A stretch of DNA of 42,178 nt from NCBI GenBank assembly GCA_947495975.1, contig CANMBE010000019.1, forward strand, positions 1-42,178, read 5' to 3'. Source of the DNA: Ignavibacteria bacterium. GTDB lineage: Bacteria; Bacteroidota; Ignavibacteria; Kapaibacteriales; Kapaibacteriaceae. Positions 1-39,562 of the stretch are shown here, piece by piece (the stretch's first letter is position 1; each line of letters begins with the position of its first letter). Below the pieces are notes generated by a model. That model saw nothing but the letters and a program-made list of their open reading frames with translations, searched no databases and was not told where the DNA came from. The position numbers and the translations under genes are program-made.

Positions 1-207
1 ATAACGGTCACCATACCACCGAATTGTCATTGTAGTGTTACGTGTGTAAGACACGTATGCAGAGGGACTCGTTACGTAAACGTATCCCCAGCCATATGTA
101 CACTGCGCTATAGCTTGCGATGCACCGAACGCCATAAATGCAAATGCAATAAGCATGAATGCTTTGACCCTAGTGGTCATTAACCGAATCAGTAAAGGTT
201 GGTTCAT
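1..207 (-). CDS. Secreted protein, N-terminal part only (gene runs off the window)
   Basis: Sixty-nine codons are visible and the frame stays open to the window edge. The product begins with a Sec-type signal peptide: a basic start, a hydrophobic stretch rich in Phe/Met/Ala, and a probable cleavage site after ASQAIA before Gln. The mature start (TSPSAYVSYTRNTTMTIRW) vaguely resembles the repeated Ig-like modules of FCB surface proteins, but too little is present to name a family. The ATG at 207 is preceded by GGGGCCGAGAAA, a weak ribosome-binding context. The gene is read away from the ASST locus to its right. Function is unknown; T9SS cargo would be a guess because the C-terminus is outside the window. 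Confidence 0.6.
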   Translation of the reverse strand, partial: MNQPLLIRLMTTRVKAFMLIAFAFMAFGASQAIAQCTYGWGYVYVTSPSAYVSYTRNTTMTIRWYGDRY

Positions 208-415: not shown

Positions 416-3400
416 TCAGTTTTTAACGAGGGAAACGACGCTCCTACGCTGTCCTTCGAAGAAAAGCTCTAAATAATAGACTCCAGAGCCGATTGTTGGG
501 AGAGCTACACAAGGAGCAGATAAGACCTGCTGATCAATATTCAGCACCAAGCTACCCTGAATTGTGTAAAGCCTAGCTTTATATGGGAGTTGGGGAGACA
601 ATGCGGTGTTAATAACGAGATTGTTGCCTACGAAATAGGCGGTGATGACTCCCTTTTCTCCAGAATCTTTGTCCTGCACCCCAGTTGTCACGAGAGTAGT
701 GAATCGGGAAGGAGAACCAAACTCGTTTGGTTTGCCATTTGTTTTACCAACGGCCCGCCAAAAATAGTCTGTGCCACCTAAAAGCCCAGAATACGCGCAG
801 GTGCCGCTATTTGACAGAAATTGAAAGTCTGGTGCCTCAAAAGATACACTTCTAGAAACCTGTGTGCTATACGAATCAAAAGCAGGAGACGTTGTATAGC
901 TAAAGACACCAGCAAGCGGAACATTTGTAGATCCAGAAATTGGCACAAGAGGAGTAAGCCCTTGCGATGGTCTAGAAGTGGTAGTAAATGAGGCCGTATC
1001 GCTCCATCTGCCGCTGGCCGTATTGTTGTACGCTATTACACGCCACCCATAGGTAGTACCTGGCTTAAGCGTGGGTGCGGTGCAGCTTGTCTCCGTAATT
1101 CTAAAAATCTCTAAATCTGGGGCTTTGAATGACTGTTTCGATGTAAGCTGAAGGTCATAAAAACTCGCTAGTGGAACACTTGTCCAAGTAAACCGAACGT
1201 TCATGGTATCCACATTCCCAGTTCGGTTTGGGTTTATCGTGCTCGATGCAGGCAATACAGTTGTAGAATTTGTAGTAAACGGTGATGGAGCTTGATCTGG
1301 TCCCGGCCCATATTGGCCAACAGCGTGGCATGTCCAAAACGATCTCGTAGCGATTGGCAATGATGCGATGGTAAGAGGTGGGCGGTTAGAAGAATCCTTA
1401 GCGATAACGCTACTATCAACCAATCGTTTAACCGTTACCACGTATCGAATAGCCCCCTGCACCTGATCCCAAATAAAGAGGGGTCTATCGGTTGCAACGT
1501 CTACGGCGTCAAACGGAGGTGTAACAAGTCTTGGGGCCGGTGGGCTCGTTACAAAAAAAGCTTGTGTGCTCGGGCGTCCAACAATCGTGTCGCTCAAGGC
1601 GCGCACGTACCATGTAAACTTTGACACAGGAAAGAGCTTCGTTCCGGGTGAGAAAGAATTTGTAGTGAGGACTGTATCAATCGCAACAATTGGCGACCCA
1701 AATCCAGTAATGAGAACACGGTATTGTTGAGCACCAGTTACAGCAGACCAGCGAAAAACATGCGAAGGCTGAACAGCTATTGTGTCTTTTGCAACAACTG
1801 TTGGACTGATAATGGTAACAATCCCCAAACGTGTTGTGAATTGGAAAACGTCTGACCACGGACCGTAGCCTGTTGGAAGCTTGCCACGAACTCTCCAATA
1901 CAACTTTGTGAAATCCGCAACATTCGAAAGTGTTGTATCTAAACGCCTCGTTGAAAAGCGGGCGTAGTTAGTTGCAAACGTTTGAACCTTGGACAGCTCA
2001 ACTTGATATTCACCATTTGAAACAGCATCTGTCCACTCAAGCTTTGGTGCTGCAATTACTTCGGTAGCATAGTTTTCTGGAGTAATGAGACGTGGAGCAA
2101 AGCATTTCGCATAGCCAATCATGAATTCGCCATACATCAACTTGTTTACTGTCAAACGTTTTGTTGCAGCAGAATAGGTAGCTACTACCGGGCTAAAATC
2201 TTCTTTGCCTTCTTTAGCACGATGATAGAGCTTGATCTGGTCAGGAAACACAACACCTGGAACAGCTCCGATCTCAAACGTCATGGTTCCAGCTATGAGT
2301 GCTGAATCCTTTGCGCGGAAAACCCAGCGAGTAGGAAGAACACCGCAAGAGACATCGTTAGTGAAGCTAATATCGTGCGGAGGGTATGAGTGGCGCTCGG
2401 CTACTGCCGAGGTGGTATCATCAACACGTGTTAACGAGATAGAAAGATGAGTGTTGCTGTCCGAACGCGTAAATGAAACGTTCCCGAAAGTAGTAATGCG
2501 CCTGTAAGCGCCCGTCATGAACATCGCTTGCTTCAAAACTCTATATGGTGTGAATCCATTAACAGCGGGGTTCTCCAGCTTGACCTGAACAACTCCATCT
2601 CTGCTTACTTCATGTGCAATCACACTGCTCGTGGCGGAGCCATACCCTATGAGAATACTTCCATTTTCAAGTTCCTGGGCACTGCCCATTGTATTGCTGT
2701 AAATGTCCGGTGTTGGCCTAAACTCGAACACCCTCTTTACAGTTTTTGCATTCTCATTTACTTCATATTCTACCGCTCGGGAACGTTGCGGTTCTGGTTT
2801 AAGATTTCCATTATCAAACATCAGGATTGTACCAGCGCTCGTTCTCGTTACAGTATGCTGATGTGAAAAACCCACAAAACCATCGAGAGTGTCATTGAGC
2901 CACGAAAATTGGTTGTTCTTTGATTTTGTGCCACCAAGACGCCACATTACTGCGCCTGACTGCCTGTTGATCTTGATTACTTCATCGAGATGTCGACAAG
3001 AAATAAGAAGATTACCGTCATCATCTTTTACTATTGAATTGATATGGATATAGTCAACATATGCAACATCAAGTTGCACGTCTTCAGTTGCGTCTGTTAC
3101 AGGAATGTGATCTAGTGATTTCCATTCAAATAATGTAACTCCGCTAAAGGTTCTCTCTTGAACAATGTTCTCGAGAACGGTTGCATCTGTCTTTCCACCG
3201 GTAACAATTCCCGACAAATCCATTTTGCGTTCTTTAGCACCGAGAATGAGATACGAGGTATCAGTAATAATACGACACTCATGAAAATCAGTTATACCAG
3301 TTCCGGAGTAACGCAGAGTATCAATAATTTTGCGCTCAATATCACGCCGAATGTAAACTGGTATTTGAGCCAGGACGGTAAAATGTGAAAACCATTTAAA

Positions 3401-3652
3401 GTTATACGGCATCACATTAGCGTGTTGTCCAGTATAGGTCCTGAACATGTTCTTACCAGCGTGATCAAGCACAGAAAAAGAGTCAACCGCGTTGGGAGCT
3501 ATGAAGAAATATCCAGGTGCTGGGTCTTTGAAAACAGGGAGAGCCAGATCTTTAAATCCGGTTTGACCATATACTGGAAAAGACACACAAACAATGGTCA
3601 ACCATGCAATGACCACTGAGGACAAAAATGTCGATATTAGAGACGAACGCAT
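416..3652 (-). CDS. Arylsulfotransferase (ASST)-like surface protein with Ig/FN3-like repeats and T9SS sorting domain (paralogue 1)
   Basis: About 1078 residues. Domains in order: signal peptide (cleavage near VYGQ), an ASST-type beta-propeller over roughly residues 30-500, three to four Ig/FN3-like modules (W-x-V-R and TYGWRV strands), and a C-terminal T9SS sorting domain of about 75 residues ending GSGVYYLELFF...VSLVKN. Visible propeller motifs include TDFHEC, YIHIN, CRHLDE, MWRLGG and FSHQH. These His-bearing turns are where ASST proteins place their active-site and substrate-binding histidines, but I cannot assign the sulfated His. Known ASSTs transfer sulfate between phenols; activity here is inferred only. 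The start is taken at the internal Met (3652), because it fits the signal peptide and overlaps the divergent gene least; a Met at 3673 is the alternative. By eye roughly two thirds of the propeller is identical to the gene at 5299-8538. Confidence 0.85.
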   Translation of the reverse strand: MRSSLISTFLSSVVIAWLTIVCVSFPVYGQTGFKDLALPVFKDPAPGYFFIAPNAVDSFSVLDHAGKNMFRTYTGQHANVMPYNFKWFSHFTVLAQIPVYIRRDIERKIIDTLRYSGTGITDFHECRIITDTSYLILGAKERKMDLSGIVTGGKTDATVLENIVQERTFSGVTLFEWKSLDHIPVTDATEDVQLDVAYVDYIHINSIVKDDDGNLLISCRHLDEVIKINRQSGAVMWRLGGTKSKNNQFSWLNDTLDGFVGFSHQHTVTRTSAGTILMFDNGNLKPEPQRSRAVEYEVNENAKTVKRVFEFRPTPDIYSNTMGSAQELENGSILIGYGSATSSVIAHEVSRDGVVQVKLENPAVNGFTPYRVLKQAMFMTGAYRRITTFGNVSFTRSDSNTHLSISLTRVDDTTSAVAERHSYPPHDISFTNDVSCGVLPTRWVFRAKDSALIAGTMTFEIGAVPGVVFPDQIKLYHRAKEGKEDFSPVVATYSAATKRLTVNKLMYGEFMIGYAKCFAPRLITPENYATEVIAAPKLEWTDAVSNGEYQVELSKVQTFATNYARFSTRRLDTTLSNVADFTKLYWRVRGKLPTGYGPWSDVFQFTTRLGIVTIISPTVVAKDTIAVQPSHVFRWSAVTGAQQYRVLITGFGSPIVAIDTVLTTNSFSPGTKLFPVSKFTWYVRALSDTIVGRPSTQAFFVTSPPAPRLVTPPFDAVDVATDRPLFIWDQVQGAIRYVVTVKRLVDSSVIAKDSSNRPPLTIASLPIATRSFWTCHAVGQYGPGPDQAPSPFTTNSTTVLPASSTINPNRTGNVDTMNVRFTWTSVPLASFYDLQLTSKQSFKAPDLEIFRITETSCTAPTLKPGTTYGWRVIAYNNTASGRWSDTASFTTTSRPSQGLTPLVPISGSTNVPLAGVFSYTTSPAFDSYSTQVSRSVSFEAPDFQFLSNSGTCAYSGLLGGTDYFWRAVGKTNGKPNEFGSPSRFTTLVTTGVQDKDSGEKGVITAYFVGNNLVINTALSPQLPYKARLYTIQGSLVLNIDQQVLSAPCVALPTIGSGVYYLELFFEGQRRSVVSLVKN

Positions 3653-5282
3653 GAGATATTTCAAACTCAACATTATAGTACTTTGCTGCTATTGGATAGG
3701 GCTCGTCTCTCCACCAACCCTGACAGGGGGCTTTTTGTTACAGCCCACTGAAGAGTATCCATTTACACGGGTTGGAGTAAACACATTTTTTGGCATGAAC
3801 GTAATCTACGCAAGCCAAAATTCACTTTTGCTAGCCACTAATCAGGATCTCTTCCGGTCATCTGACAATGGCGAAACGTGGGCGACAATTGCTGAGCCCC
3901 TTATCTACAGAAATATTACGGCGATTCTTCCACACGGAGACACCGTTTATGCTGGAACGTCGCACGGGGCAATTCACCGCACAACAGATCATGGTTTAAC
4001 GTGGAAGCAGCACTCGCAACCAGTAAACAGTGGGCCAATAACCTCCATCTTCAACACAAATGGGCAAATTGTTGCGTCGTCAGACGAGCTCATTGCATCT
4101 GCCCCACACAATGGACCCTATGCGGCGAGTCTTTTAGACAGTACGCTCATCCTTCAGCACACATCCGGTGCCCAAGCTCATATCCAGTGCACAGCTTTTG
4201 TTGGAGCAACAGCAGTAGAGATACATGGCTCAACAATATTCATTGCGGTAAAACGGGCTGGCATATTGACGTTAGAGATAGAGAATCCCACCATTTCGCA
4301 CGTAAAGATGGACTACTTAGAGGGAGCGTTTATCACCACGCTGGTGCTTCAGGATGGATATCTCTATGCCGGTTTGAAGCTTGGCCAAGGCGGAGTTCAT
4401 AGAAAGCCATTGGCCGGAACTAGTTGGGAGCCAGTCATCAATGATCGGATTGCTGGAATTGTAGAAGTAACGGCCCTCGTTGCAAACGAACGAGGGGTTT
4501 ATGTTGCCAGCCGCGAGCACGGTGTATCCTTCATTGGCCGATCAACTCAGCTCATGCGGTCTATCAGTGATGGACTTCATCACGCCATCATCCAAACTAT
4601 TAGCGAAGTAGATTCAATGTTGATTGTTGGATGCCGGCTGCGCGGAGTTCTACGTCTTACCAAACAAGGAAGAGACTTAGCAATACTAAGTGACGATATC
4701 CCGCAAAGTCCCGAATACATGGTAGGTACAGTTGGACGCACCATAGTTGTGGGATTCGCTGATGGGAAGATAATCCAGAGTAACAACAATGGTAAGACAT
4801 GGGATTCGCTTCCTAGTCCATTTGCCAGGGCCACGTTAAATACCATTGTTGGGCATGGGAACGTGCTCTATGCTACTACTACTTCTGGAGTGTGGCACAG
4901 TTCTGATCTGGGAGGTACATGGAAATCTCTACATGTCAACCTGGAGCGAGAAAACATACAGAAGGTTGTTGTGCATGACAGCGTCACCATTATCATGACC
5001 ACGGCTAAAACATTTTTACTGCGGCCAAACGGCGAGCTAGAAAACTTTGATCCAAAGATTCCAGAAGAAGAACACCCACCTAAAATTATAGACGCTGTGG
5101 TGTATGGCCATAAGATATATGGCACAGGATACCCTGGCTTCTATGTCAGTGACGACTTTGGACGCACCTGGAAGTCACACACAATCTCTAAGACAATGAT
5201 TTTACGAACTCTTGCAATCACAAAGGGATTTATCTACGTTGCAACGGACATGGGAAAGATTCTCTCCTGCCCCCTACCGTAG
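3651..5282 (+). CDS. Secreted Asp-box (BNR) beta-propeller protein, sortilin/Ycf48-like
   Basis: About 543 residues beginning with a hydrophobic signal peptide (MRYFKLNIIVLCCYW...). Five clear Asp-box turns of the S-x-D-x-G-x-T-W type are visible: SSDNGETW, TTDHGLTW, SNNNGKTW, SSDLGGTW and SDDFGRTW. This indicates a multi-bladed beta-propeller such as those of sortilin-like or Ycf48-like proteins. There is no T9SS C-terminal domain: the protein stops at KILSCPLP right after a propeller strand. It lies between two ASST paralogues on the opposite strand. Its ATG overlaps the neighbour's start codon (CATG) and its stop is 16 bp from the convergent neighbour's stop. An in-frame Met at 3594 would add 19 residues before the signal peptide and is less likely. 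Substrate or partner is unknown; the position suggests a link to the ASST proteins. Confidence 0.8.
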   Translation: MRYFKLNIIVLCCYWIGLVSPPTLTGGFLLQPTEEYPFTRVGVNTFFGMNVIYASQNSLLLATNQDLFRSSDNGETWATIAEPLIYRNITAILPHGDTVYAGTSHGAIHRTTDHGLTWKQHSQPVNSGPITSIFNTNGQIVASSDELIASAPHNGPYAASLLDSTLILQHTSGAQAHIQCTAFVGATAVEIHGSTIFIAVKRAGILTLEIENPTISHVKMDYLEGAFITTLVLQDGYLYAGLKLGQGGVHRKPLAGTSWEPVINDRIAGIVEVTALVANERGVYVASREHGVSFIGRSTQLMRSISDGLHHAIIQTISEVDSMLIVGCRLRGVLRLTKQGRDLAILSDDIPQSPEYMVGTVGRTIVVGFADGKIIQSNNNGKTWDSLPSPFARATLNTIVGHGNVLYATTTSGVWHSSDLGGTWKSLHVNLERENIQKVVVHDSVTIIMTTAKTFLLRPNGELENFDPKIPEEEHPPKIIDAVVYGHKIYGTGYPGFYVSDDFGRTWKSHTISKTMILRTLAITKGFIYVATDMGKILSCPLP

Positions 5283-5298
5283 TTCACCAAGAATTACA

Positions 5299-8200
5299 TT
5301 AATATTTAACGAGAGGGACGATTGTGTGGGCACAATCAGAAAATTGTAGGATCAGATAGTAGGCACCGGAGGCCAGTGATTGAATTCCGATAGATCTAGA
5401 AACAACATCTCCATTCGTAGCTGAATAGACTAAGGTTCCCTGAAGAGAATAAAGGTCAACACGCGCTAGCTTCTGCTCTGGGTTTGGAATTCTGATGAAG
5501 AGATTATCTCCAACAACGTTGGCAGTGATAGCATCACTTGGCGTATGTTCTTCATCTACCTCGGTAACCGCCTTTACAGTAGTAAAGCTTGCTATTGCCC
5601 CGTATTCATCAGGATTACTCCGACTCTTGCCGATGGCTCGCCAAAAGTATTCAGTTTCCAGACGCAGTCCAGCATACAAGCAATTCCCACTCCCCGAGAA
5701 AAATTGAAAATCTGGAGCGTCAAAAGAAGCATCACGAGACACTTGAACAGCATATGAAGAATAGCTCTCAGAGGTGCTGTACCGAAAGACGCCAGAGAGC
5801 GGCACATCAATTGAACCAGCAGCCGGTGAACGTGGTGTTAAACCTTGTGAAGGGCTAGAGTTCGTCGTAAATGATGCCGTGTCTGACCAAGTACCGGTGG
5901 CAGTATTGTTGTATCCAAAAACACGCCACGCATACGTCACTCCAGGTTTTAACGAAGGAATGACTACCGAATTCTCTGAGACTCCAAACGCCTCATAATC
6001 AGGGTTCCTGAACGATTGCTTCGAAGTAATCTGTATGTCATAAGAACGAGCAAGTGGTGCTAGCGTCCAAGAAAACATGACGTTTAATGTGTCGATATCT
6101 GAAGCACGCTTTGGCCCAACTGTCCTCGCTGCAGCAAGCGTCGTAACAGCGCTCGTAGTGAATACACTTGCTATTGCATCTGGCCCACGACCATACACCC
6201 CAATTGCATAACAGGTCCAAGAAGCTCTAATGGCAGTTGGAAGTGACTCGATTGTGAATGACGGCATCGCTGCCGTGTCCAATGACACAGTTGATCCATC
6301 GGCCAATGACTTTATTGTTAAAACATACTTGATTGCCCCTGGTACCACGTTCCAATCAAAGACTGGATAGTCCGTGGGTACATTCTCTGCATCAAACAGT
6401 GGAGAAACGAGTAATGGTGCAAGAGGGCTGGTAACAAAAAAGGCACTGGCACTCATACGCCCCTTCACAGTGTCATAGAGAGCCCTAACCTGCCACGTAT
6501 ATTTTGTATTTGGAGCAAGCAATGCGCCCGGCTTGAAAGAAGAGGGAACCACGATAGTATCAAGTACTGGCAGCAATGATCCATTCGCCGTAATAATCAC
6601 GCGGTATTGCGCAGCTCCAAACACTGGAGACCAACTGAATGATTGATTTGGCAGAACAGCAATGGTGTCAACAGTAGCAGCAGGCGCTGCTATGAAAGGG
6701 ATGCCGATCTGCGTTGTGAATTGAGAAACCTCAGACCATAGACCAAAGTTGGCCGTTTCTTTGCACCTGACGCGCCAGTACAGTGTTGAGAATGCTGGCA
6801 CAGACGTAAGTGTTGTATCTAGCCGACGCGTGAGGAATCGTGCATAGGTGTTGTCAAAGGCAGGCGAGGTAGAAAGCTCAACCTGATACTCGCCGGTCGT
6901 CAGAGCCTCAGACCATGCGAGCATGGGAGATGAGGTAATCTCGGTAGCAAAATTTGGAGGCGACAGAAGGGTTGGTGAAAAACACTCATCGTAGCCAATT
7001 AAAAACTCGCCAGCCATTAACCTGCCTACCACGATCCGTTTCTTCGTGGCGTTGTAAGAAGTTTCAACGAGTGTAAAATCACCCCACCCCTCTCTAGGCC
7101 TGTGGTATAGCTTAATCTGATCTGGAAAATCTACGCCTGGCACATCACCAACATCAAATGCCATAGTTCCCGCCACCAGCATCGTGTCCCGAATTCCGAT
7201 GACCCATCGAGTGTCAAGAACTCCACATGCCCTTTCATCTATAAAGCTTACATGATGTGGTGCATACGAATGGCGTTCAGCAGTGGCCGTGGTAGTATCA
7301 TCTATGCGTTTCAAAACAATTGAAAAGTGCGTTGAACTGTCTCCGCGAGCAAAAGACACTGAACCTAGGGATGTAAGTTGTTTATACGCACCGGTCATAA
7401 ACATTGCTTGTTTCAGAACCCTATACGAGCTGACGTTCGCTTCTCCATCGGTACTAATCTGCACATGCAGTTTCCCGTCGCGGCTTACTTCTTGAGCTAA
7501 CAGGTTGAGGGAATTAGTTCCGTATCCGATAAGCAGATTTCCATTTTCAAGCTCTTGTACGCTACCCATCGCAGACGAGTGAACCGTTTGAGCCGGAACG
7601 TACTGAAATACTCGGCTAACCGTAAGGGCAACTTCATCTATAGCGTATTCTACAGCCCGCGATGCACGAGGAGCGGGCTTGAGGTTGCCATTGTCAAACA
7701 AAAGAAGCGTACCCGCAGCCGATCTACTCACACTGTGCTGATGTGAGAATCCAAAGAAGCCATTCGTAGTGTCATTCACGAACCGAAACTGATTACCCTT
7801 TGACTTTGAGCCTCCGAGTCTCCACATCACAGACCCATCCAGACGATTGATCTTGATTATCTCATCAAGATGCCTGCAGGAAACAAGAATGTTGCCGTCA
7901 GTGTCCTTGTAAACTGCATTAATGTGGATGTAATCGATATTCTGAACATCCAGTGCAACGTCTTCTGTTGCATCTGTTACAGGGATGTGGTCAAGTGACC
8001 GCCATTCAAACAATGTGTTTCCGCTAAAGGTTCTTTCTTGAATCACGTAGGTTATAACATTCGCATCTGGTTTTCCACCAGAAACTACCTGCGACATATC
8101 TACCGTAGTGTTCGCTGAGCCTAAAATTAAGTATGACGTGTCTGAGATAATCCGACATTCGTGAAAATCTGTCTCGTAGCCTTCAGATGCACGCAATGTA

Positions 8201-8538
8201 TCGATGACCTTAAGGTTTACATCACAGCGAATGAATCCAGGTATCTTAGCAACTGCATTGAAGTATGTTATCCACTTATGTTCATAGGGTTGCACGTTCG
8301 TATGCTGCCCAATTTTTACTCTTTGGACATTCTTGCCTGAATGATCAATAACAGAAAACGAATCTGCAACGTTGGGCCCCAAAAAAAAGTAGCCAGGTGC
8401 TGGGGTGCCAAGAACCGCAACCCTTAGGTCTTTAAAAGCCGTTTGACAGAATGCTGGGAGACCACACGAAAGAAAAGAGGCTGCAAAAAAAAAACTAACA
8501 CCGACGCTCGATAATAAACGCATTAGACTTGTAACCAT
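5299..8538 (-). CDS. Arylsulfotransferase (ASST)-like surface protein with Ig/FN3-like repeats and T9SS sorting domain (paralogue 2)
   Basis: About 1079 residues with the same architecture as the gene at 416-3652: signal peptide ending near PAFCQ, ASST propeller to about residue 500, several Ig/FN3-like modules (LYWRVR, YTWQVR, YAWRVF strands), and a T9SS sorting domain from about residue 1000 ending SGAYYLIL...IVPLVKY. Signature turns TDFHEC, YIHIN, CRHLDE, MWRLGG and FSHQH are all conserved with paralogue 1. The start may instead be the Met at 8523. The pair is most simply a tandem duplication now separated by the opposite-strand Asp-box gene. Predicted location is the cell surface or secreted; enzymatic activity is untested. 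Confidence 0.85.
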   Translation of the reverse strand: MVTSLMRLLSSVGVSFFFAASFLSCGLPAFCQTAFKDLRVAVLGTPAPGYFFLGPNVADSFSVIDHSGKNVQRVKIGQHTNVQPYEHKWITYFNAVAKIPGFIRCDVNLKVIDTLRASEGYETDFHECRIISDTSYLILGSANTTVDMSQVVSGGKPDANVITYVIQERTFSGNTLFEWRSLDHIPVTDATEDVALDVQNIDYIHINAVYKDTDGNILVSCRHLDEIIKINRLDGSVMWRLGGSKSKGNQFRFVNDTTNGFFGFSHQHSVSRSAAGTLLLFDNGNLKPAPRASRAVEYAIDEVALTVSRVFQYVPAQTVHSSAMGSVQELENGNLLIGYGTNSLNLLAQEVSRDGKLHVQISTDGEANVSSYRVLKQAMFMTGAYKQLTSLGSVSFARGDSSTHFSIVLKRIDDTTTATAERHSYAPHHVSFIDERACGVLDTRWVIGIRDTMLVAGTMAFDVGDVPGVDFPDQIKLYHRPREGWGDFTLVETSYNATKKRIVVGRLMAGEFLIGYDECFSPTLLSPPNFATEITSSPMLAWSEALTTGEYQVELSTSPAFDNTYARFLTRRLDTTLTSVPAFSTLYWRVRCKETANFGLWSEVSQFTTQIGIPFIAAPAATVDTIAVLPNQSFSWSPVFGAAQYRVIITANGSLLPVLDTIVVPSSFKPGALLAPNTKYTWQVRALYDTVKGRMSASAFFVTSPLAPLLVSPLFDAENVPTDYPVFDWNVVPGAIKYVLTIKSLADGSTVSLDTAAMPSFTIESLPTAIRASWTCYAIGVYGRGPDAIASVFTTSAVTTLAAARTVGPKRASDIDTLNVMFSWTLAPLARSYDIQITSKQSFRNPDYEAFGVSENSVVIPSLKPGVTYAWRVFGYNNTATGTWSDTASFTTNSSPSQGLTPRSPAAGSIDVPLSGVFRYSTSESYSSYAVQVSRDASFDAPDFQFFSGSGNCLYAGLRLETEYFWRAIGKSRSNPDEYGAIASFTTVKAVTEVDEEHTPSDAITANVVGDNLFIRIPNPEQKLARVDLYSLQGTLVYSATNGDVVSRSIGIQSLASGAYYLILQFSDCAHTIVPLVKY

Positions 8539-8661
8539 ACGTAGAAGAACACAAAACAGTGTTATACGTTACAAAGCTATTTTCACCAGACGAAATATGA
8601 GGCCTACATGAAGGTGATCATTTCACAACACGTACAAAAGCAATTCATTTTACTATTGAAA

Positions 8662-10851
8662 ATGTACTCCTTAAAATCATTGTGTCTCGTTGGCATAACC
8701 CTGATACTAGCAGGTATAACAGTACGTTCCCAGTCTGTAACGAATGCCACAAACAAGGAACGTGTTGATACAGCAACATATACCATGCCACATATTATTG
8801 TAACTGCCGTTCGTGCTGAAGAAAACATACTTGAGATACCTTTGGCTATTACCATTGTACCATCAATGGTACTTCAGACACAACGCGGATTTGGTATTGA
8901 TGGTCTTTTATCCCTCGTCCCGGGTGTAATAGGTCAGTCGCGGTCAGGGGGCATTGACTCTCGTGTTCAAATTCGAGGCTTTGGTGCACGCGGCGCTGGA
9001 CAGCGATCAAACGCGGGCACTTCTCGGGGAATCCGATTCTATACCGATGGTATACCGGAAACGGAGCCTGATGGCCGCACGTCCTTTGACCTCATCAATA
9101 CGGTTCACGCATCACGTGTAGAGGTCATTCGCTCCAATGCCTCAACGCTATGGGGCAATGCATCTGGAGGTATTGTCTCCGTCTCCACCGTCCCTGCTTC
9201 GCGTGAGGCCTTCGCTGATGCAGGCGTATCCCTTGGGAGTTTTGGCTTTCTCCGTCAGTCGCTACTCGCCAACACACCAATGGGAGACGGTCAAGCGTAC
9301 GTATCGGTCACAAACACTGCATTAGATGGTTGGCGTCAGCACTCTCGTGGGTTTCAGACACTTGGCACAATTGGCATGATCACAAAACCTGCTGATCAGA
9401 CGTCAGTGAATGTATTTGTAACAGGCGCTACAAACCAATACGAAATCCCAGGTCCGCTTACGATCGATCAGTGGCGCACTGATCCACAACAGGCACAGAA
9501 TGACTCAACAATCTACTACCCGTCCTTTGTTCAACGAGATGAACACCGAAACAATAGCCTTGTTCGCATAGGAACCACCGTTGATCATTCATTCAGTATC
9601 GAAAGTGGTTTGTCTGCAACAGCATTTGTGCAGAGCAAAAAACTCGAACGCTCCGAAAGAAATACATGGCGAGATTTTAACCGCTTTCATATTGGCGGAA
9701 ACGCGATATATCGTAACACGCAGATTCTTGACACGGAAATGCAAAACCGTGTTTTGGTAGGGGGCGATGTCCAATTTCAAGATGGTGCGGTTCTATTCTA
9801 CAATCTCAACCCTACTACCAGGGCAAGAGGAACCACGCTGCGGCAAAACAAGCGCGAAGCTGCACTCAACCTGGGCGCCTTTGTTCAAGATGAATTTATG
9901 TTGGGGCTATTAAGTGTAACTGCCGGACTTCGCTATGACGCTATCACATACAACAATCAAGACTTCATCAATCCGCTCGCTGATACATCCGTTTCGTATT
10001 CCCGACTTATCCCAAAGCTAGGATTTACATATCGCCTGGCGCCCCTTGCCAACTTCTATGCTAGTCTCGGCGGAGGAATAGAAGTGCCGGCAGCAAATGA
10101 AACTGATCCACCTGCCGTGATAGGTATTACAACACCGAGCAAATCAATGAACCCTCTGTTGAAGCCAATTGTGAGTACAACGTATGAGGTAGGTTTGAAG
10201 GGCATTACGAATATGGACCATAGCTTTCTAAAATCACTTCAATATGATGCAGCAGCATTCTACATCGCCATTGAAAATGACATTGCGCCGTACAACAGCG
10301 GTGCCTTCTTCACTACAATTGGAAAGAGTAGGCGTTTGGGTTTTGAGTTTGGTGGTGTTGCTATAAGTGAGATAGGGCTAACGCTTGCTGCAAGCATAAC
10401 GATACTGTCAACTGAATACATTGACTACGTCATCGACTCTAGCTACATCGATACGAATCTAGCCGGGCGCACATCAAACTATTCTGGTAATGAACAATCT
10501 GGTATACCACCATTTAATGCCACCGTTCGTATGCGCTATGATATGCCAATATTTTCTGGGCTCTACGCCGAGATTGAATCGCGAACTACTGGCGCGTATT
10601 ACGCAGATGATGCAAACACTATAACTGTTGATGGCTGGACAACGATATCGGCAACAGCTGGTGTGCGAGTTCCGTTGATAGATCAATCACTGGCACTTGA
10701 CGTATTGGCTCGGGTAGACAATCTTATGGATGTTTCCTACATGGGATCTGCGTGGATCAATCCAGATATCACACAAGGTGGAACACCATACATTGAATCA
10801 GGACTGCCACGCAATGTGATGCTCACAGTTGGATTGCATTACACACCGTAG
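8662..10851 (+). CDS. TonB-dependent outer-membrane receptor
   Basis: About 729 residues. After a signal peptide ending near TVRSQS comes the N-terminal plug (roughly residues 35-175) with IIVTAVRAEENILE, SRVQIRGFGARG, YTDGIPE and RVEVIRSNASTLWGN...GGIVSV. These are classical TonB-receptor plug motifs. The rest is an alternating-strand 22-stranded-type barrel with a LGAFVQDE strand and a terminal strand MLTVGLHYTP. It imports a large ligand (siderophore, cobalamin or other chelate) powered by TonB. No neighbouring transporter or regulator shows which ligand; the motif content resembles FecA/PupB-like siderophore receptors. An upstream in-frame Met at 8608 would add 18 residues; the Met at 8662 gives the better signal peptide. 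It is divergent from the ASST gene, with about 120 bp between start codons and no riboswitch-like structure that I could recognise. Confidence 0.9.
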   Translation: MYSLKSLCLVGITLILAGITVRSQSVTNATNKERVDTATYTMPHIIVTAVRAEENILEIPLAITIVPSMVLQTQRGFGIDGLLSLVPGVIGQSRSGGIDSRVQIRGFGARGAGQRSNAGTSRGIRFYTDGIPETEPDGRTSFDLINTVHASRVEVIRSNASTLWGNASGGIVSVSTVPASREAFADAGVSLGSFGFLRQSLLANTPMGDGQAYVSVTNTALDGWRQHSRGFQTLGTIGMITKPADQTSVNVFVTGATNQYEIPGPLTIDQWRTDPQQAQNDSTIYYPSFVQRDEHRNNSLVRIGTTVDHSFSIESGLSATAFVQSKKLERSERNTWRDFNRFHIGGNAIYRNTQILDTEMQNRVLVGGDVQFQDGAVLFYNLNPTTRARGTTLRQNKREAALNLGAFVQDEFMLGLLSVTAGLRYDAITYNNQDFINPLADTSVSYSRLIPKLGFTYRLAPLANFYASLGGGIEVPAANETDPPAVIGITTPSKSMNPLLKPIVSTTYEVGLKGITNMDHSFLKSLQYDAAAFYIAIENDIAPYNSGAFFTTIGKSRRLGFEFGGVAISEIGLTLAASITILSTEYIDYVIDSSYIDTNLAGRTSNYSGNEQSGIPPFNATVRMRYDMPIFSGLYAEIESRTTGAYYADDANTITVDGWTTISATAGVRVPLIDQSLALDVLARVDNLMDVSYMGSAWINPDITQGGTPYIESGLPRNVMLTVGLHYTP

Positions 10852-21353: not shown

Positions 21354-21412
21354 GGTTATCAGTTGGTTAGTGAGATAGGAGGACAGCGGACCAAATAGTG
21401 TTGACAGGACGA

Positions 21413-23881
21413 ATGATGAGAAAGCTACGTGTAGTAGGGAAAACCCTATTTTCGTTCATGTATAGACTCATACTACCCCTTCTCTTCCTGATGTTTTCGC
21501 TTGGCCTCGTGGCACAGCCTGCAGATCTTGCTCCACTAAAGGTTACTACGAATGTATCACCAGAACCTGGGTATCTGTATCTAGCACCTAACTGCCGCAT
21601 AAGTCCGCGGCCATATCAGTCGTATCTGGGTGTCTACAACGTTAACGGCGGCGTCCTCAAAGTAGGGCGCACAACCAACTACCCATTTGAGTTTAAGGTC
21701 TTTCCCGATGGCAGGATGGGCTTTTCAGAGCTTGTTGTGTTTGCAGGCGCGTCAGTACCGGCGGGCGTGTATATCGTTGACACCACCTTAGCCCAACAGG
21801 AATTTATTTCTCAACAACGGGGCTATCTCACTACGCAACACGATTTTCACATGCTGCCAAACGGCCATCGCATTCTATTAGGTTCCGAAGATGTAACGGT
21901 GGACATGAGCAAGGTAGTGCCTGGTGGCCATCCAGCGGCGAACGTGGTTGGCGCTGTGATCCAAGAGGTGGACTGTGATGGAAACGTGGCTGTGCAGTGG
22001 CGGTCTCTCGATCACTTGCCAATCACAGATTCATACGAGAATCTTCTTGCGCCTGCAATTCGGTACTGTCACAACAATGCTCTGTGGATTGACACGGATG
22101 GCAACTGGTTGGTCTCTATGCGTCACTCCTCGCAGATCATAAAGGTTGAGAGAAAAACCGGCAACGTAATGTGGACATTGGGTGGCAAGCGTAATGAGTT
22201 CACATTCATCGGTGAGCATCAAGAGCAGGCGCCAACATACTTCAGTTATCAACACGATATACGTCGGCTACCCAACGGACACATCACGATGTTCGATAAT
22301 GGTACACAGCATTCGCCGCAATATTCGCGCGGTGTTGAATATGAAATCGACGAGGCAAACAAAACGTGCCGGCTTGTTTGGGAATATCGGCACGTGCCCG
22401 ACTACTACGTGAGTATTCAAGGGGGCCTACAAACGCTTGATAATGGTCACCGCTTGTTGGGATGGGGAAGTGCAGCAAATGAAGGCTCTGCTGCCGTTAC
22501 AGAAGTTGATTCTACGGGCTTCATTGTCTTTGAAGCCTCGTATCCAAAACAGATGTATGTGTACCGTGCAACAAAATATCCTATCTGGCCAACGGGCAGA
22601 GCAAGTGCTGCAGTGCAGATCAAGGACGTATTGTTGGACGAGATGTATTCGTACCAACGTGGAAATCAGAACGTTGGTCTGCGAGTGGCGTTTACGTTGT
22701 TGGATTCTTATTTCTATAACTCCACAACTGCTCGTCGCTTTCAATGGTCGCCAAAGAATCCTCTGTGGAAACAAGAAGCCCCATTACTTCATCAGGCTAG
22801 AATAGAATTGTTGGTTGAAGGTGTAAAGCATCACGAACTTACCGCGCGGTTTCATGTTGACACCTTGGGGATTATATGGGATCCACAGGCGGTAACTGTC
22901 TACCACAGACCAAACATTGATAGTGGACGTTTTACAGCACTGAGTACACGCTTTGATGTTGCAACGCGCGAGCTGGTTATTAACCGTGCAACTGCTGGTG
23001 AATATGCATTTGGTATTGCTTCGGCACCACCTGAGGCGCCGTCCGCTCCGCAACTGCAGTGGCCAATAGGTGCTGAGCGCATTCTAGAGCTGCACACACA
23101 TATGCTTCGTGTAGCACTGTATGGACGCATTGATTCATTGCGTGTGCAGGTATCGCGCAATGCATCTTTCTCTACGATTGTTCTTGATGCTGCAACACAA
23201 AGCGACAGACTTCCATATACAGCAGGTAATTCAGAAGAGAAATTCTTTTGGCGTGCGCAGGTTTTAGCGGGCGCACGTGCGAGCGCCTGGTCAGCAGTTG
23301 ACAGTTTTGTTGTTGCTTCGGCGTACCTCACAATCCTGCGTCCAGAATCAGACGTGCGATGGACACATGACAGCAGTTATGCCGTGTCGTGGAAGACAAA
23401 CATCAGCGGAAGTGTGAGACTCGAGCTTGTGAAAAACGATCAGGTAGTGGCTGTTATTCGCGATTCAGTTCTAGCATCTGCGCAAGGTTTTCTCTGGCTC
23501 GTTCCAGTTACCGTTCCTATGGGCACTGAGTACCACATACGCATCACATCTCGGCAGCAAGAGTTTTCACAGATCGTGCAAACTGGTGTACAGAACATTG
23601 AGGTCACAGGCTTCACATCAGTGGCTGAACGTCACGAGAGCACCTCGCTCCTTCGTGTATATCCACAGCCGGCAACGAGCATCATCTCGTTTGAGAATAG
23701 TGGATCGGGATGCTCATCGGTGTTTGTGTACGCAGCAACAGGCGAGCAAGTTGCACACGCTGAAAACAATGGTGTAAGGATAAGCCTTGCAACAAATGAT
23801 TTGCCTGCCGGACTCTACGCCGCACATGTGACCGACATGTTTGGACGGCTATTCCGCACGTCCTTCATTGTTCAACGTTGA
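21413..23881 (+). CDS. Arylsulfotransferase (ASST)-like surface protein with T9SS sorting domain (paralogue 3)
   Basis: About 822 residues. Signal peptide (LPLLFLMFSLGLVAQ), then an ASST propeller with clearer canonical motifs than the two left-hand paralogues: HDFHMLPNGHRILLG, YCHNNALWIDTDGNWLVS, MRHSSQIIKV, MWTLGGK, SYQHDIRRLPNGHITMFDNG, and LDNGHRLLGWG. An Ig/FN3-like region follows (about residues 545-740), then a T9SS sorting domain starting at LLRVYPQPA and ending LPAGLYAAHV...TSFIVQR. The start is one of two adjacent ATGs (21413/21416) preceded by AGGA; a GTG at 21398 is less likely. It stops exactly against the convergent cytochrome gene. Surface location and sulfotransferase chemistry are inferred from the family. 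Confidence 0.86.
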   Translation: MMRKLRVVGKTLFSFMYRLILPLLFLMFSLGLVAQPADLAPLKVTTNVSPEPGYLYLAPNCRISPRPYQSYLGVYNVNGGVLKVGRTTNYPFEFKVFPDGRMGFSELVVFAGASVPAGVYIVDTTLAQQEFISQQRGYLTTQHDFHMLPNGHRILLGSEDVTVDMSKVVPGGHPAANVVGAVIQEVDCDGNVAVQWRSLDHLPITDSYENLLAPAIRYCHNNALWIDTDGNWLVSMRHSSQIIKVERKTGNVMWTLGGKRNEFTFIGEHQEQAPTYFSYQHDIRRLPNGHITMFDNGTQHSPQYSRGVEYEIDEANKTCRLVWEYRHVPDYYVSIQGGLQTLDNGHRLLGWGSAANEGSAAVTEVDSTGFIVFEASYPKQMYVYRATKYPIWPTGRASAAVQIKDVLLDEMYSYQRGNQNVGLRVAFTLLDSYFYNSTTARRFQWSPKNPLWKQEAPLLHQARIELLVEGVKHHELTARFHVDTLGIIWDPQAVTVYHRPNIDSGRFTALSTRFDVATRELVINRATAGEYAFGIASAPPEAPSAPQLQWPIGAERILELHTHMLRVALYGRIDSLRVQVSRNASFSTIVLDAATQSDRLPYTAGNSEEKFFWRAQVLAGARASAWSAVDSFVVASAYLTILRPESDVRWTHDSSYAVSWKTNISGSVRLELVKNDQVVAVIRDSVLASAQGFLWLVPVTVPMGTEYHIRITSRQQEFSQIVQTGVQNIEVTGFTSVAERHESTSLLRVYPQPATSIISFENSGSGCSSVFVYAATGEQVAHAENNGVRISLATNDLPAGLYAAHVTDMFGRLFRTSFIVQR

Positions 23882-35436: not shown

Positions 35437-38079
35437 TTATTCGTTGACAACAACGTTCTTCGTGATCGTCGTGTTTGCAATGGAGAGACGAACGAGATAC
35501 AGGCCCGATGTTGCATCACGAAGTTCAATTGTCCTTTGTGATATGTTAACATCTCGTTCCTCATATACTGGCTCGCCGAGGACATTGAAGACGACGATGT
35601 CATAGAGCACGCCCTCAGGCACTTGAACTGTGAACAATCCGGTGTTTGGGTTCGGGAACACATACACATCATCATCAATGTTCTGTGATTCTACTCCAAC
35701 CGTTGAAGAGTAGAGGTCTGCACTCCATAGACCACGTCCAAATGTTGCGGCCCACAACTTGTTGTTGAAGTACGAGATTTCCAGTTCGGTAACAACAACA
35801 ACTGGGAGCCCATCCTGATACGGCACCCAGTCCGACATTGTACCGTCTCTGTAGAACACTCCTACATCGGTTCCAATGTAGAGGCCCTCGTTGCTTCCCT
35901 TTTGATACACGATGCAATTCGCTGGAACATTTGGCAATGTTCCGGAGTAGTTAGCCCACGTGGTGCCACCATCGGGAGACATGAACACTTTCTTACCTGC
36001 CGCGTAACCCGAAAACGTCACGAACATTCGCTGCGGATTTGTAGGGTCTACTGCGAGGTACGAAACCACACCATTCACTTCAGGGTCCCACTCCGATACA
36101 TACGACCACGTCTCTCCACCATCTGTAGTGCGAGCAATCGTGTCGTGCGTGGCCACGTAGATTGTATTCGGGTTTGAGGGAGCAACTGCAATGTAGCGGA
36201 GCAAATCGCTCGATACCACGGGAGATATTGCAGACCATGAGTCACCCTGATCTGTCGTTTTGTAGACTTTGTTGTAACCAGCAAACAGGACCTTCGGATT
36301 CGTTGGGTGAATCACAAACGGGGTAACCCATTCTCCCGCTGGCGATGTGCCCTCTTTCTGTCCACCTGGAATGTTTACTGAAATCACGAATTCCGAGTCA
36401 TTGGCCTTATCGGTTCGAAAGATCGTACCGTTTTGAGCGGAGGAGTATAGAATGCTGTTATTCGAGTAATCGATAAGGCACTCCATCCCATCGCCGCCAG
36501 TTCGTTCACTCCATACATTGTTCTCGAGCTCCTTGGTGGCATTATCTTGAAGGCCACAAACAACATTTGCCGCAACTGTTTGCGCAACTCCAATCCGATA
36601 AATCTGGCTTATCTCAAGTCCATTAGTGATATCGGTCCAGCTGGCACCAGCATCAGTCGTCTTGTGGATTCCACCGTCATTACACGCGAACAACGTTCCG
36701 CGCTGCAGTGGATGGAATGCGAGCCAGTGACAGTCAGCATGAACAACGGGTATCGTGTCAGGATGGCCGACTCCAGCGGCCGAAAGCGCATCAGCGCTAT
36801 CTGCCCAAACGCTCGTGAGTCTCCAATCAGATCCACCGTTCTGTGAACTCCAGACATTAACGCCACCGATCCAGATATCTTTCTCGTTGTCAGGATTAAT
36901 GACGTATGCGAGGTCGTAGTTCCCTTGACCATCAGCTCCGGATGCGTCCCCTTTGATGTTCAGCATGTTGTTGGATTCTGTACCAACGAGATATTGTGTG
37001 AATGAAGCACCGCTGTTCTTCGACGTCCACAAGCCAGCCAAGCCGGATGATGAATTGACGCAAATCGCATCGACGAGATCTGGCGAAGCAGCGGAAACGG
37101 CTAAATCAACTCGGATGATACCAGGCAGTGTTACAACGGACGACCACGTTTCACCAGAGTCAGTTGAACGATAGATTTCCGAGGCACCGTATGATGAGGC
37201 ATACATAATTGATGCGTCCCCTGGCTTGCACTCAAGGTCCATGAAGTACCCTGCTTGAACATTCGTCCACGTCTCTCCGCCATCTGACGTACGCCATATT
37301 CCGTCGGTCGCTGCTGCAAGTATGATCTTGGAGTTTGTTGGGCTCATCAACAGACGTCGCATCAACTTAGCCGATGTTACATTCCAGCTTAACCCTGTTG
37401 TATTCCAGGTTGTCCCACCGTTTGTTGACTTCAGAACACCGATGCTCTTGGTGTCTCCATCAGATCTAGCTATCATACCTTTCAAGCTGCCCATATCCCC
37501 ATCGCCTGTCGCGATATACATGATGTCGGCATTTGTTGGATCAATAGCTATGTCACTCACTCCTAAGACTGGCAAAGAATCGGTGCGAGTACTCCACGTC
37601 GTGCCTCCGTCGGTCGTCTTCCACAATCCACCTGCAGGCGCGCCAATCCAAAACGTGTTTGCTTCGGTTGGGTGAAAAGCCAAGCAGTTGATTCGTCCAA
37701 GTCCCTGCCCATTTCCAGCACTCGTCGAAGGCCCCTTGCTTGTCCAGTTTGCCGATGACATGATCGTCTCAGCTCGCTTGCTAGCTGGAGCTCTATTCGT
37801 CGAACGATATTCGATGTACGCATCCCATGTCGCAGAAGAACGCGGGAACTGTCCGTTCGGTAAGATCCGTGATTCCCAGTACCATTCCCATCGCTTAAAC
37901 TGCTTATAGCCTTGCCCCTTTACTATGCTCTTCCCATTCCAGTAGTCATTGAATGCCCCCCGGATCTCTTGAAAGGTTGGATTCTCCGATTGAATCTTCG
38001 CCATCCAAGGTTGAGCGATCAACTCTTGGGTGGTGACCAGCATTATCAGCAAGACAATGTATTGTATCAGTGTTCTCAT
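35437..38079 (-). CDS. Asp-box (sortilin/BNR-type) propeller protein with T9SS sorting domain
   Basis: About 880 residues. Signal peptide ending QELIAQ; a short N-terminal region; then about ten Asp-box turns (KTTDGGTTW, KSTNGGTTW, RTSDGGETW, RSTDSGETW, KTTDAGASW, KTTDQGDSW, RTTDGGETW, SPDGGTTW and degenerate ones) that build one or two beta-propellers; then a T9SS sorting domain from YVFPNPNTGLFTVQVP to NVVVNE. Proteins of this type are abundant secreted FCB proteins, annotated variously as glycosyl hydrolase-like or sortilin-like. No catalytic residues could be assigned. An AGGGGAAG ribosome-binding site precedes the ATG. It lies 26 bp downstream of a lipoprotein gene and is probably co-transcribed with it. 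Confidence 0.88.
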   Translation of the reverse strand: MRTLIQYIVLLIMLVTTQELIAQPWMAKIQSENPTFQEIRGAFNDYWNGKSIVKGQGYKQFKRWEWYWESRILPNGQFPRSSATWDAYIEYRSTNRAPASKRAETIMSSANWTSKGPSTSAGNGQGLGRINCLAFHPTEANTFWIGAPAGGLWKTTDGGTTWSTRTDSLPVLGVSDIAIDPTNADIMYIATGDGDMGSLKGMIARSDGDTKSIGVLKSTNGGTTWNTTGLSWNVTSAKLMRRLLMSPTNSKIILAAATDGIWRTSDGGETWTNVQAGYFMDLECKPGDASIMYASSYGASEIYRSTDSGETWSSVVTLPGIIRVDLAVSAASPDLVDAICVNSSSGLAGLWTSKNSGASFTQYLVGTESNNMLNIKGDASGADGQGNYDLAYVINPDNEKDIWIGGVNVWSSQNGGSDWRLTSVWADSADALSAAGVGHPDTIPVVHADCHWLAFHPLQRGTLFACNDGGIHKTTDAGASWTDITNGLEISQIYRIGVAQTVAANVVCGLQDNATKELENNVWSERTGGDGMECLIDYSNNSILYSSAQNGTIFRTDKANDSEFVISVNIPGGQKEGTSPAGEWVTPFVIHPTNPKVLFAGYNKVYKTTDQGDSWSAISPVVSSDLLRYIAVAPSNPNTIYVATHDTIARTTDGGETWSYVSEWDPEVNGVVSYLAVDPTNPQRMFVTFSGYAAGKKVFMSPDGGTTWANYSGTLPNVPANCIVYQKGSNEGLYIGTDVGVFYRDGTMSDWVPYQDGLPVVVVTELEISYFNNKLWAATFGRGLWSADLYSSTVGVESQNIDDDVYVFPNPNTGLFTVQVPEGVLYDIVVFNVLGEPVYEERDVNISQRTIELRDATSGLYLVRLSIANTTITKNVVVNE

Positions 38080-38896: not shown

Positions 38897-39562
38897 ATGA
38901 TCAGTATTCTGACCCGTATGACGTTCGCAACGATCTTCATGCTATTCTTGTCGCTAGCCGAGCAGGTTCAAGCACAGAGTCAAAATGATCCATGCAATTG
39001 TGTGAACCCACAATTCATGTTTAACCTCGACATCTGTATCGACAACACACAATACACAGTTGCCACCTATGGCTGTAAAACTGTACCGCCGATCGGACAA
39101 CTTCTTGCACAGATTTGTCTGGGGTCTGATCAGCAGAACCAATACACGACTATCACCAAGCTGTGCTTTGTAGGTAACAAGCCCGCAACAATCAATGCTA
39201 AGTCCGTGTTTGATGCTCTGCTCTGCCGAATGGACCCCTGTAAGTTTCCGGGAAACTTTGGAGCTCAAGTTGGACCTAATCCGGGCGACATCTATTGTTG
39301 GACAGTTGTGACTCCCAACTGTGTCCGTGTCGTCAATTCCACTGGGTGTATCGAGCGCTGCGGCGATGGATGCTGTGTGCTGGCATCACGATGGAAGCGA
39401 CAAGCAGATGGTTCGTGTACTCTCGATGTAAAGTCCGCAATTCAAGGAGGAGGCCCAGCAAACTGGTACTGTGGTAAGCCAAGTACGAATTGCGAACAGA
39501 TACAGTCATGCCAGCCGATCGATTGCTCAAGCCGCGAAACATGTTGCGAGGTGCAACCATGA
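38897..39562 (+). CDS. Cysteine-rich secreted protein of unknown function
   Basis: About 221 residues from the ATG at 38897 (GGAG six bases upstream); a Met at 38918 is an alternative start. The signal peptide (MTFATIFMLFLSLAEQVQAQ) is followed by a mature region of roughly 200 residues with 21 cysteines, including CNC, CGDGCC and TCC groups, consistent with a disulfide-rich fold. No known family was recognised. Its stop overlaps the next start by 4 bp (ATGA), so it is made together with the large T9SS cargo downstream. The longer open frame upstream runs through the IS-derived element and is not likely to be translated. Confidence 0.75.
   Translation: MISILTRMTFATIFMLFLSLAEQVQAQSQNDPCNCVNPQFMFNLDICIDNTQYTVATYGCKTVPPIGQLLAQICLGSDQQNQYTTITKLCFVGNKPATINAKSVFDALLCRMDPCKFPGNFGAQVGPNPGDIYCWTVVTPNCVRVVNSTGCIERCGDGCCVLASRWKRQADGSCTLDVKSAIQGGGPANWYCGKPSTNCEQIQSCQPIDCSSRETCCEVQP

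Follow-up and report, generated by a model that had tools for sequence, protein, structure and literature searches.

Long arylsulfotransferase-domain genes flanking a head-to-head propeller gene in Kapaibacteriaceae: probable exported enzymes of the Cpz4 kind

We analyzed a window of 42,178 nucleotides (the whole stretch of DNA considered here, contig C19, positions 1–42178) from the genome of an Ignavibacteria bacterium (G000; 2.18 Mb in 24 contigs, rated 100% complete). This organism belongs to Kapaibacteriaceae within Bacteroidota, and the nearest named relatives in our search were 'Candidatus Kapaibacterium' and metagenome-assembled genomes labelled Ignavibacteria or Bacteroidetes. Near the left end of the window, two long open reading frames (ORFs) for proteins with an arylsulfotransferase (ASST) domain lie on either side of a propeller gene of the opposite strand, as follows.

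416–3673, minus strand: ASST-A, an exported-type multidomain arylsulfotransferase-domain protein of 1085 amino acids (PF05935, E = 2.1e-30; PF14269, E = 4.7e-26)
3652, minus strand: likely start codon of ASST-A (MRSSLIST...), in the shared CATG
3594–5282, plus strand (opposite to the ASST pair): Asp-box propeller ORF without a recognised sorting tail (Sortilin-Vps10/BNR matches)
3651, plus strand: likely start of the propeller (MRYFKLN...)
3650–3653, both strands: CATG palindrome, which can supply start codons to both divergent genes
5299–8538, minus strand: ASST-B, the second copy, of 1079 amino acids (PF05935, E = 8.1e-28; PF14269, E = 1.6e-25)

An earlier note on this DNA had described an opposite-strand Asp-box propeller gene flanked by the pair, and the Asp-box and Sortilin matches of the ORF agree with this description. 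The propeller does lie between the copies; however, it is not merely enclosed by them, since its likely start overlaps that of ASST-A.

Both ASST ORFs are open end to end, and their products aligned from residue 8 to residue 1078 with 55% identity (E = 0), which bears out the whole-length resemblance described in the earlier note. A profile search for ASST domains, which that note had set as a check and possible refutation, placed the pair far above the Pfam cut-offs (PF05935, cut-off 24.2 bits: 106.4 for ASST-A, 97.9 for ASST-B and 109.2 for ASST-C, a paralogue described below; PF14269, cut-off 27 bits: 92.3 for ASST-A and 90.5 for ASST-B). In both proteins the ASST domain is followed by FN3/Ig-like domains recognised by profile matches, which confirms the stalks. 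ASST-B consists of an ASST domain (approximately residues 33–390), β-sandwich/FN3-like domains and a C-terminal β domain (approximately residues 1000–1079). ASST-A and ASST-B were 61% identical within residues 33–390, 52–60% identical in the six regions of the stalk that we compared and 32% identical in their final 80 residues, and the ASST part was the best-kept region relative to ASST-B in six of eight comparisons (tied in one, second in one).

The ASST structure was predicted for the copy at 5299 only, using AlphaFold2 (mean predicted local distance difference test score, pLDDT, of 89.9, with most ten-residue blocks between residues 40 and 350 at 93–98). When aligned using VIA, the model superposed on Cpz4 (9kf6) with a Z score of 43.0 (2.0 Å over 333 aligned residues, 29% identity) and on EcAST, the AssT of Escherichia coli CFT073 (3elq), with a Z score of 32.5 (2.9 Å over 331 aligned residues); the next chain after the ASSTs, a Bacteroides protein of unknown function, had a Z score of 22.1. 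The structural check proposed earlier thus came out on the side of an ASST, as the model of the domain can be superposed on two ASSTs of known structure and the sulfuryl-binding residues are kept. A phage library yielded no match for the ASST and a match to just one unknown family for the propeller.

A profile built from eight ASST domains and run against the PDB sequences found both Cpz4 (9kf4, E = 2.6e-47) and EcAST (3elq, E = 2.6e-15). The profile alignment equated His356, Asn358, Arg374 and His436 of EcAST with H205, N207, R222 and H268 of the family, and 4p04, an H436N mutant by its title, carries N in the column of the family's H268 (QH). A review (PMC13426309) names His252, His356, Asn358, Arg374, Thr501 and the sulfated His436 in EcAST. 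A further residue, H126, aligned with a His of Cpz4; the EcAST alignment stopped short of residue 252. Over a 77-row alignment comprising the three window proteins and 74 of the 79 named loci, H205 and H268 were each kept in all 77 rows, N207 in 76, R222 in 75 and H126 in 73. We also examined a family-locus set of 41 ASST ORFs from the window and loci L035–L054, with the copies on contigs C9 and C6 of the same genome outside the set: H205, N207, R222 and H268 were each present in 41/41, and H126 in 40/41, the exception being an ORF truncated by a contig end. The C9 copy has all five residues (alignment A1). The presence of the four residues in every family-locus ORF suggests that these genes probably encode working enzymes rather than adhesins.

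Cpz4, a PAPS-independent enzyme of caprazamycin biosynthesis (PAPS, 3′-phosphoadenosine 5′-phosphosulfate; structures 9kf4 and 9kf6), resembles the pair in the superposed propeller, in the same His/Asn/Arg set and in having no Thr at the Thr501 column. It differs in that it is a 472-residue chain of an antibiotic pathway, whereas each protein of the pair begins with a signal peptide, as judged by eye, continues past the ASST domain into an FN3-like stalk with a C-terminal domain, and is encoded in a genome without a match to adenosine 5′-phosphosulfate (APS) kinase or to PF13469/PF00685. EcAST and the other cluster I ASSTs (3elq, 3ets, 3ett and 4p04–4p07) share the propeller fold and the equivalents of His356, Asn358, Arg374 and His436. 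However, EcAST and ASST-B aligned only from residues 104 and 33, respectively, so that nothing in the pair corresponds to what precedes the propeller in EcAST, and the pair differs from EcAST in its Met at the Thr501 column, its lack of Cys between R222 and H268 and its multidomain C-terminal extension. Within its first 390 residues, the 5299 copy has cysteines at positions 25, 31, 105, 128 and 221 only; the stretch from R222 to H268 is equivalent to that in which we take the EcAST disulfide, needed for activity, to be located. These features place the pair in the ASST superfamily, probably close to Cpz4 and outside the class of EcAST. A further group close to the pair is formed by the T9SS-tailed ASST proteins (T9SS, type IX secretion system) of Ignavibacteria, KSB1 and other Bacteroidota. 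Many of these have a type A sorting domain after the ASST domain (43 of 72 tails), and some are long too (L069, 1167 amino acids; L071, 1152 amino acids), but most are shorter than the pair. AdpST, a PAPS-dependent enzyme (PMC12135136), was set aside.

For the propeller, AlphaFold2 gave a model with a pLDDT of 85.1 and β strands throughout. Structural searches (Foldseek, VIA) returned generic propellers only, many of them tied (GH74, WD40 proteins, the BT4663 sensor and virginiamycin B lyase), so that no function follows from them. To follow the gene through the family, we searched 23 family genomes with a profile of ten propellers (A4), taking E = 1e-30 or better as a strong match. Such a match was found in 15 genomes, 11 of the window's genus together with G001, G004, G021 and G022, and in 15/15, across five genera, the propeller gene and an ASST gene are arranged head-to-head. 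A second ASST gene borders the other end of the propeller in 11 of them (G000, G001, G004, G011, G012, G015, G016, G018, G019, G020 and G022), although in G019 its orientation is opposite, and no second ASST gene is found there in G013, G014, G017 and G021. Long ASSTs occur in 16 family genomes; the other seven (G003 and G005–G010) have neither a long ASST nor a propeller at comparable scores, G003 giving two short propeller matches (best 3.1e-11). The propeller changes fast: its identity to the window copy was 57, 50, 35, 34, 34, 24, 24, 32 and 27% in nine relatives. No sorting tail was recognised in the propeller, and a lipoprotein-like box (LTGC, LSGC) was seen by eye in the relatives from G015, G016 and G018.

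Outside the family, propeller relatives were searched for within flanks of at most 6 kb only. In L079 (1229–3328), from an uncultured member of Ignavibacteria, a relative (E = 1.3e-43) lies on the same strand as the ASST gene and 2.1 kb before it; in L069 (2789–5575), also from an uncultured member of Ignavibacteria, a relative (E = 1.4e-7) is divergent from the ASST gene at a distance of 0.4 kb; and L107 has a relative (E = 1.2e-5) within the flanks of its ASST gene. The association between ASST and propeller may therefore predate the family.

The likely starts of the propeller (MRYFKLN, plus strand) and of ASST-A (MRSSLIST, minus strand) both fall in the CATG at 3650–3653, and this overlap is avoidable only through a rarer start, for example TTG at 3625, which would cost the ASST signal peptide its basic residue. 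In 8 of the 15 pairs, the two genes share a CATG from which each protein would start with an N-terminus that looks signal-like by eye (G000, G001 and G013–G018). An in-frame CATG flagged by script in G011, G012, G020 and G021 gave, by eye, no natural start for both proteins, and G004, G019 and G022 had no in-frame CATG at the junction. If the overlap is real, the promoter of each gene would lie at least partly inside the coding part of the other. A σ70 scan of window positions 3200–4100 returned 2 sites, compared with 1.9 expected. An AT-rich string, ATATTTG, precedes the propeller start by a few bases, within the ASST signal-peptide codons, in 10 of 11 genus members; the window's own string differs (positions 3630–3640 read GTCGATATTAG, where ten genus relatives have GATATTTG or CATATTTG). 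This string may be a promoter element.

Three further features of the window concern the ASST genes and their surroundings.

8608–10851, plus strand: TonB-dependent receptor, adjoining ASST-B (PF00593, E = 1.9e-39; PF07715, E = 4.9e-13)
21398–23881, plus strand: ASST-C, an 827-amino-acid ASST paralogue with a different tail (PF05935, E = 3e-31)
1–204, minus strand: Ig-repeat protein, beginning only, the remainder lying at the right end of contig C9

The earlier note had counted three copies, the third at 21413–23881. There is an ASST gene at this place (ORF 21398–23881), but ASST-C was rejected as a third whole-length copy: it aligns with the pair over residues 22–524 only (34%), and the tail is another. 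Moreover, the genome holds five ASSTs rather than three, the remaining two having 838 amino acids (C9) and 519 amino acids (C6). The short C6 gene (G000:C6:46450–47448, L015) stands beside an ORF that resembles an α/β-hydrolase by eye. Orthologues of ASST-C occupy an equivalent position in G014, G016, G017 and G018. A tree built from 47 ASST domains placed the short type (21398 and C9) on a branch of its own; in this tree the G004 copies were sisters (100/96) and the G001 copies weakly so (94/93), and the window pair grouped with one G014 copy (93/93, order unresolved), the copies of this genus being mixed. A single recent duplication is too simple for this pattern of sister copies in G004 and G001 and mixing within the window's genus, and we conclude that duplication or gene conversion of the long type recurred. 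Of 395 genomes sampled across the phylum, 58 had an ASST domain of this type (at 1e-10). Accordingly, the suggestion that these proteins form a distinct group was half right: a pair or single copy of the long ASST head-to-head with this propeller is clear in the family only, whereas the ASST domains extend to those 58 genomes, and a T9SS type A match to the 43 of 72 tails mentioned above.

A homologue of the TonB-dependent receptor borders an ASST gene in five loci of relatives (L038, L040, L042, L049 and L050). The Ig-repeat protein follows ASST-A in relatives; here, its residues 2–69 are at C19:1–204 and residues 25–894 at C9:101307–103922 (C9 = 103,936). Since the gene is split over the right end of C9 and the left end of C19, the two contigs probably join, in which case the C9 ASST gene would lie ~12 kb left of the window and 4/5 of the genome's ASSTs would be in one region. 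Two further Sortilin/Asp-box propeller ORFs are found in the window, one at 35437–38079 (minus strand) with a clear T9SS tail (PF18962, 39.2 bits) and one at 39490–42051 (plus strand) with a T9SS tail match under the cut-off.

With respect to export, the signal peptides of the pair were recognised by eye (MRSSLISTFLSSVVIAWLTIVCVSFPVYGQ). The genome carries SprA (TIGR04189) on C2 over the cut-off, with 917.2 bits including neighbours in frame, and TIGR04183 (E up to 0.01) matched 43 of 72 tails of named relatives and did not match the tail of the G014 orthologue, L055. Of the window's ASSTs, only ASST-C reached the TIGR04183 cut-off (23.1 bits; cut-off 23), and PF18962 gave 19.5 bits for ASST-B and 24.5 for ASST-C (cut-off 27). 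Export through the T9SS is likely for many relatives. For the pair it is suggested, although by the cut-offs these proteins are not classed as T9SS cargo.

With respect to the supply of sulfate groups, we searched the window's own genome for four protein families. No match was obtained for APS kinase (PF01583; 11/14 control genomes positive), for the PAPS-sulfotransferase families PF13469 and PF00685 (controls 2/14 each) or for sulfatase (PF00884; controls 10/14). An endogenous route to aryl-sulfate donors was rejected, since APS kinase, PF13469 and PF00685 all gave no match in the genome; sulfate scavenging by sulfatases was rejected because PF00884 gave none. Among the 23 family genomes, APS kinase was matched in two, and 14 of the 16 genomes with long ASSTs had no match. 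Sulfate donors should thus come from outside, unless PAPS is made in another way. As for acceptors, the review (PMC13426309) states that for most ASSTs neither the physiological role nor the natural acceptor is known, and gives the preference of Cpz4 as sugar hydroxyls. We therefore regard the sugar hydroxyls of glycans, on the surface or nearby, as the favoured putative acceptors, with phenols next.

On this evidence, the locus is real and conserved, and its proteins are probably enzymatic and exported. We consider it fairly probable that the pair are ASST-superfamily sulfotransferases that work without PAPS and are exported, probably to the cell surface; in structure they are nearest to Cpz4, and they are provided with a partner propeller. 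In such a system, environmental aryl sulfate would enter the six-bladed ASST propeller, and His268 (EcAST His436) would accept the sulfuryl group, held by His126, His205, Asn207 and Arg222. From there, the group could be transferred to the hydroxyl of a sugar or a phenol, located either in the medium or at the surface of the cell. The FN3-like stalk and the C-terminal domain may hold the enzyme away from the envelope. The head-to-head propeller, lipoprotein-like by eye in three relatives, would be a co-expressed partner, perhaps one that binds either the enzyme or its acceptor.

Several observations weigh against this interpretation. The column of EcAST Thr501 is Met in the pair, with Thr in only 2/77 rows (Cpz4 likewise has no Thr); the C6 copy, which is outside the set of 41, has His in the Arg374 column (alignment A1); G002 alone of the 16 genomes with long ASSTs has no propeller match, so the propeller is not indispensable; 2/16 ASST genomes (G011 and G013) do carry APS kinase; we know of no source of aryl sulfate for this organism; and the pair scored below the TIGR04183 cut-off (ASST-A 12.3 bits, ASST-B 20.2). 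The sorting domains attributed to the pair in the earlier note are therefore not upheld, and its description of the proteins as surface-exported is plausible but weak for them, with SprA in its favour and the sub-threshold tails against it.

We next weighed alternative explanations. The neighbourhood of propeller and ASST might be mere synteny of slowly rearranging genomes without a functional link, to which we assign a minor but appreciable probability, given that other neighbours (the mur genes, a glycosyltransferase and the TonB receptor) likewise keep their places throughout the genus and that G002 has ASSTs without a propeller. However, the head-to-head arrangement was kept in 15/15 genomes over five genera while the gene at the other side of the propeller varied, and the seven family genomes without these ASSTs had no strong propeller match (best 3.1e-11, G003). 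A second propeller copy was also observed in G012 (C111:6743–8347), just past an oppositely oriented ASST gene, which likewise speaks against mere synteny. Alternatively, the proteins might have no catalytic role and act as adhesins or matrix proteins, their ASST propeller being merely a binding module. Long FN3 stalks, copy-number expansion, lineage-specific duplication, a C-terminal domain as variable as 32% between A and B and an Ig-repeat neighbour would all fit the evolution of surface proteins; however, the retention of the four sulfuryl-binding residues in 41/41 family-locus ORFs and in 75–77 of 77 broad relatives, and the ASST part being best kept in six of eight comparisons, make this rather improbable. 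The earlier note had left sulfotransferase and adhesin side by side; the strength of the ASST profiles, the superposition on two ASSTs and the kept residues favour the former, and the pair are probably ASST enzymes, not adhesins. That the proteins are active ASSTs retained, as EcAST is, in the outer membrane or periplasm instead of being T9SS cargo would fit the sub-threshold tails of the pair and the unmatched tail of L055, but has only a small probability in view of the 43 matching tails of relatives, the ASST-B tail near the cut-off (20.2 versus 23), the presence of SprA and the separate C-terminal β domain in the AlphaFold2 model.

The ASST domain, the ASST mechanism and T9SS tails are already known. 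We found no T9SS-borne ASST in titles or the beginnings of abstracts, most subscription journals lying beyond the reach of the search, and a stalked ASST tandem with a head-to-head propeller in bacteria mostly without APS kinase was not seen in the literature searched. Returning to the interpretation of the pair as exported sulfotransferases, we put forward tentatively, as a wider proposal that is unlikely in its full form, an extracellular sulfate-exchange module: PAPS-deficient bacteria would sulfate their own surface glycans, or nearby glycans and phenols, from environmental aryl sulfates, relying on stalked enzymes of the Cpz4 kind that have duplicated repeatedly and on a partner propeller co-expressed with them through the shared start codon. 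With five ASSTs and no match to APS kinase, this genome makes a clean system: whatever these proteins sulfate, the donors should be those made by others. If the proposal is true, uncultured Bacteroidota would trade sulfate at the cell surface with their environment, and these proteins would be a source of enzymes resembling Cpz4, lacking the disulfide of EcAST, for which sugars are possible acceptors.

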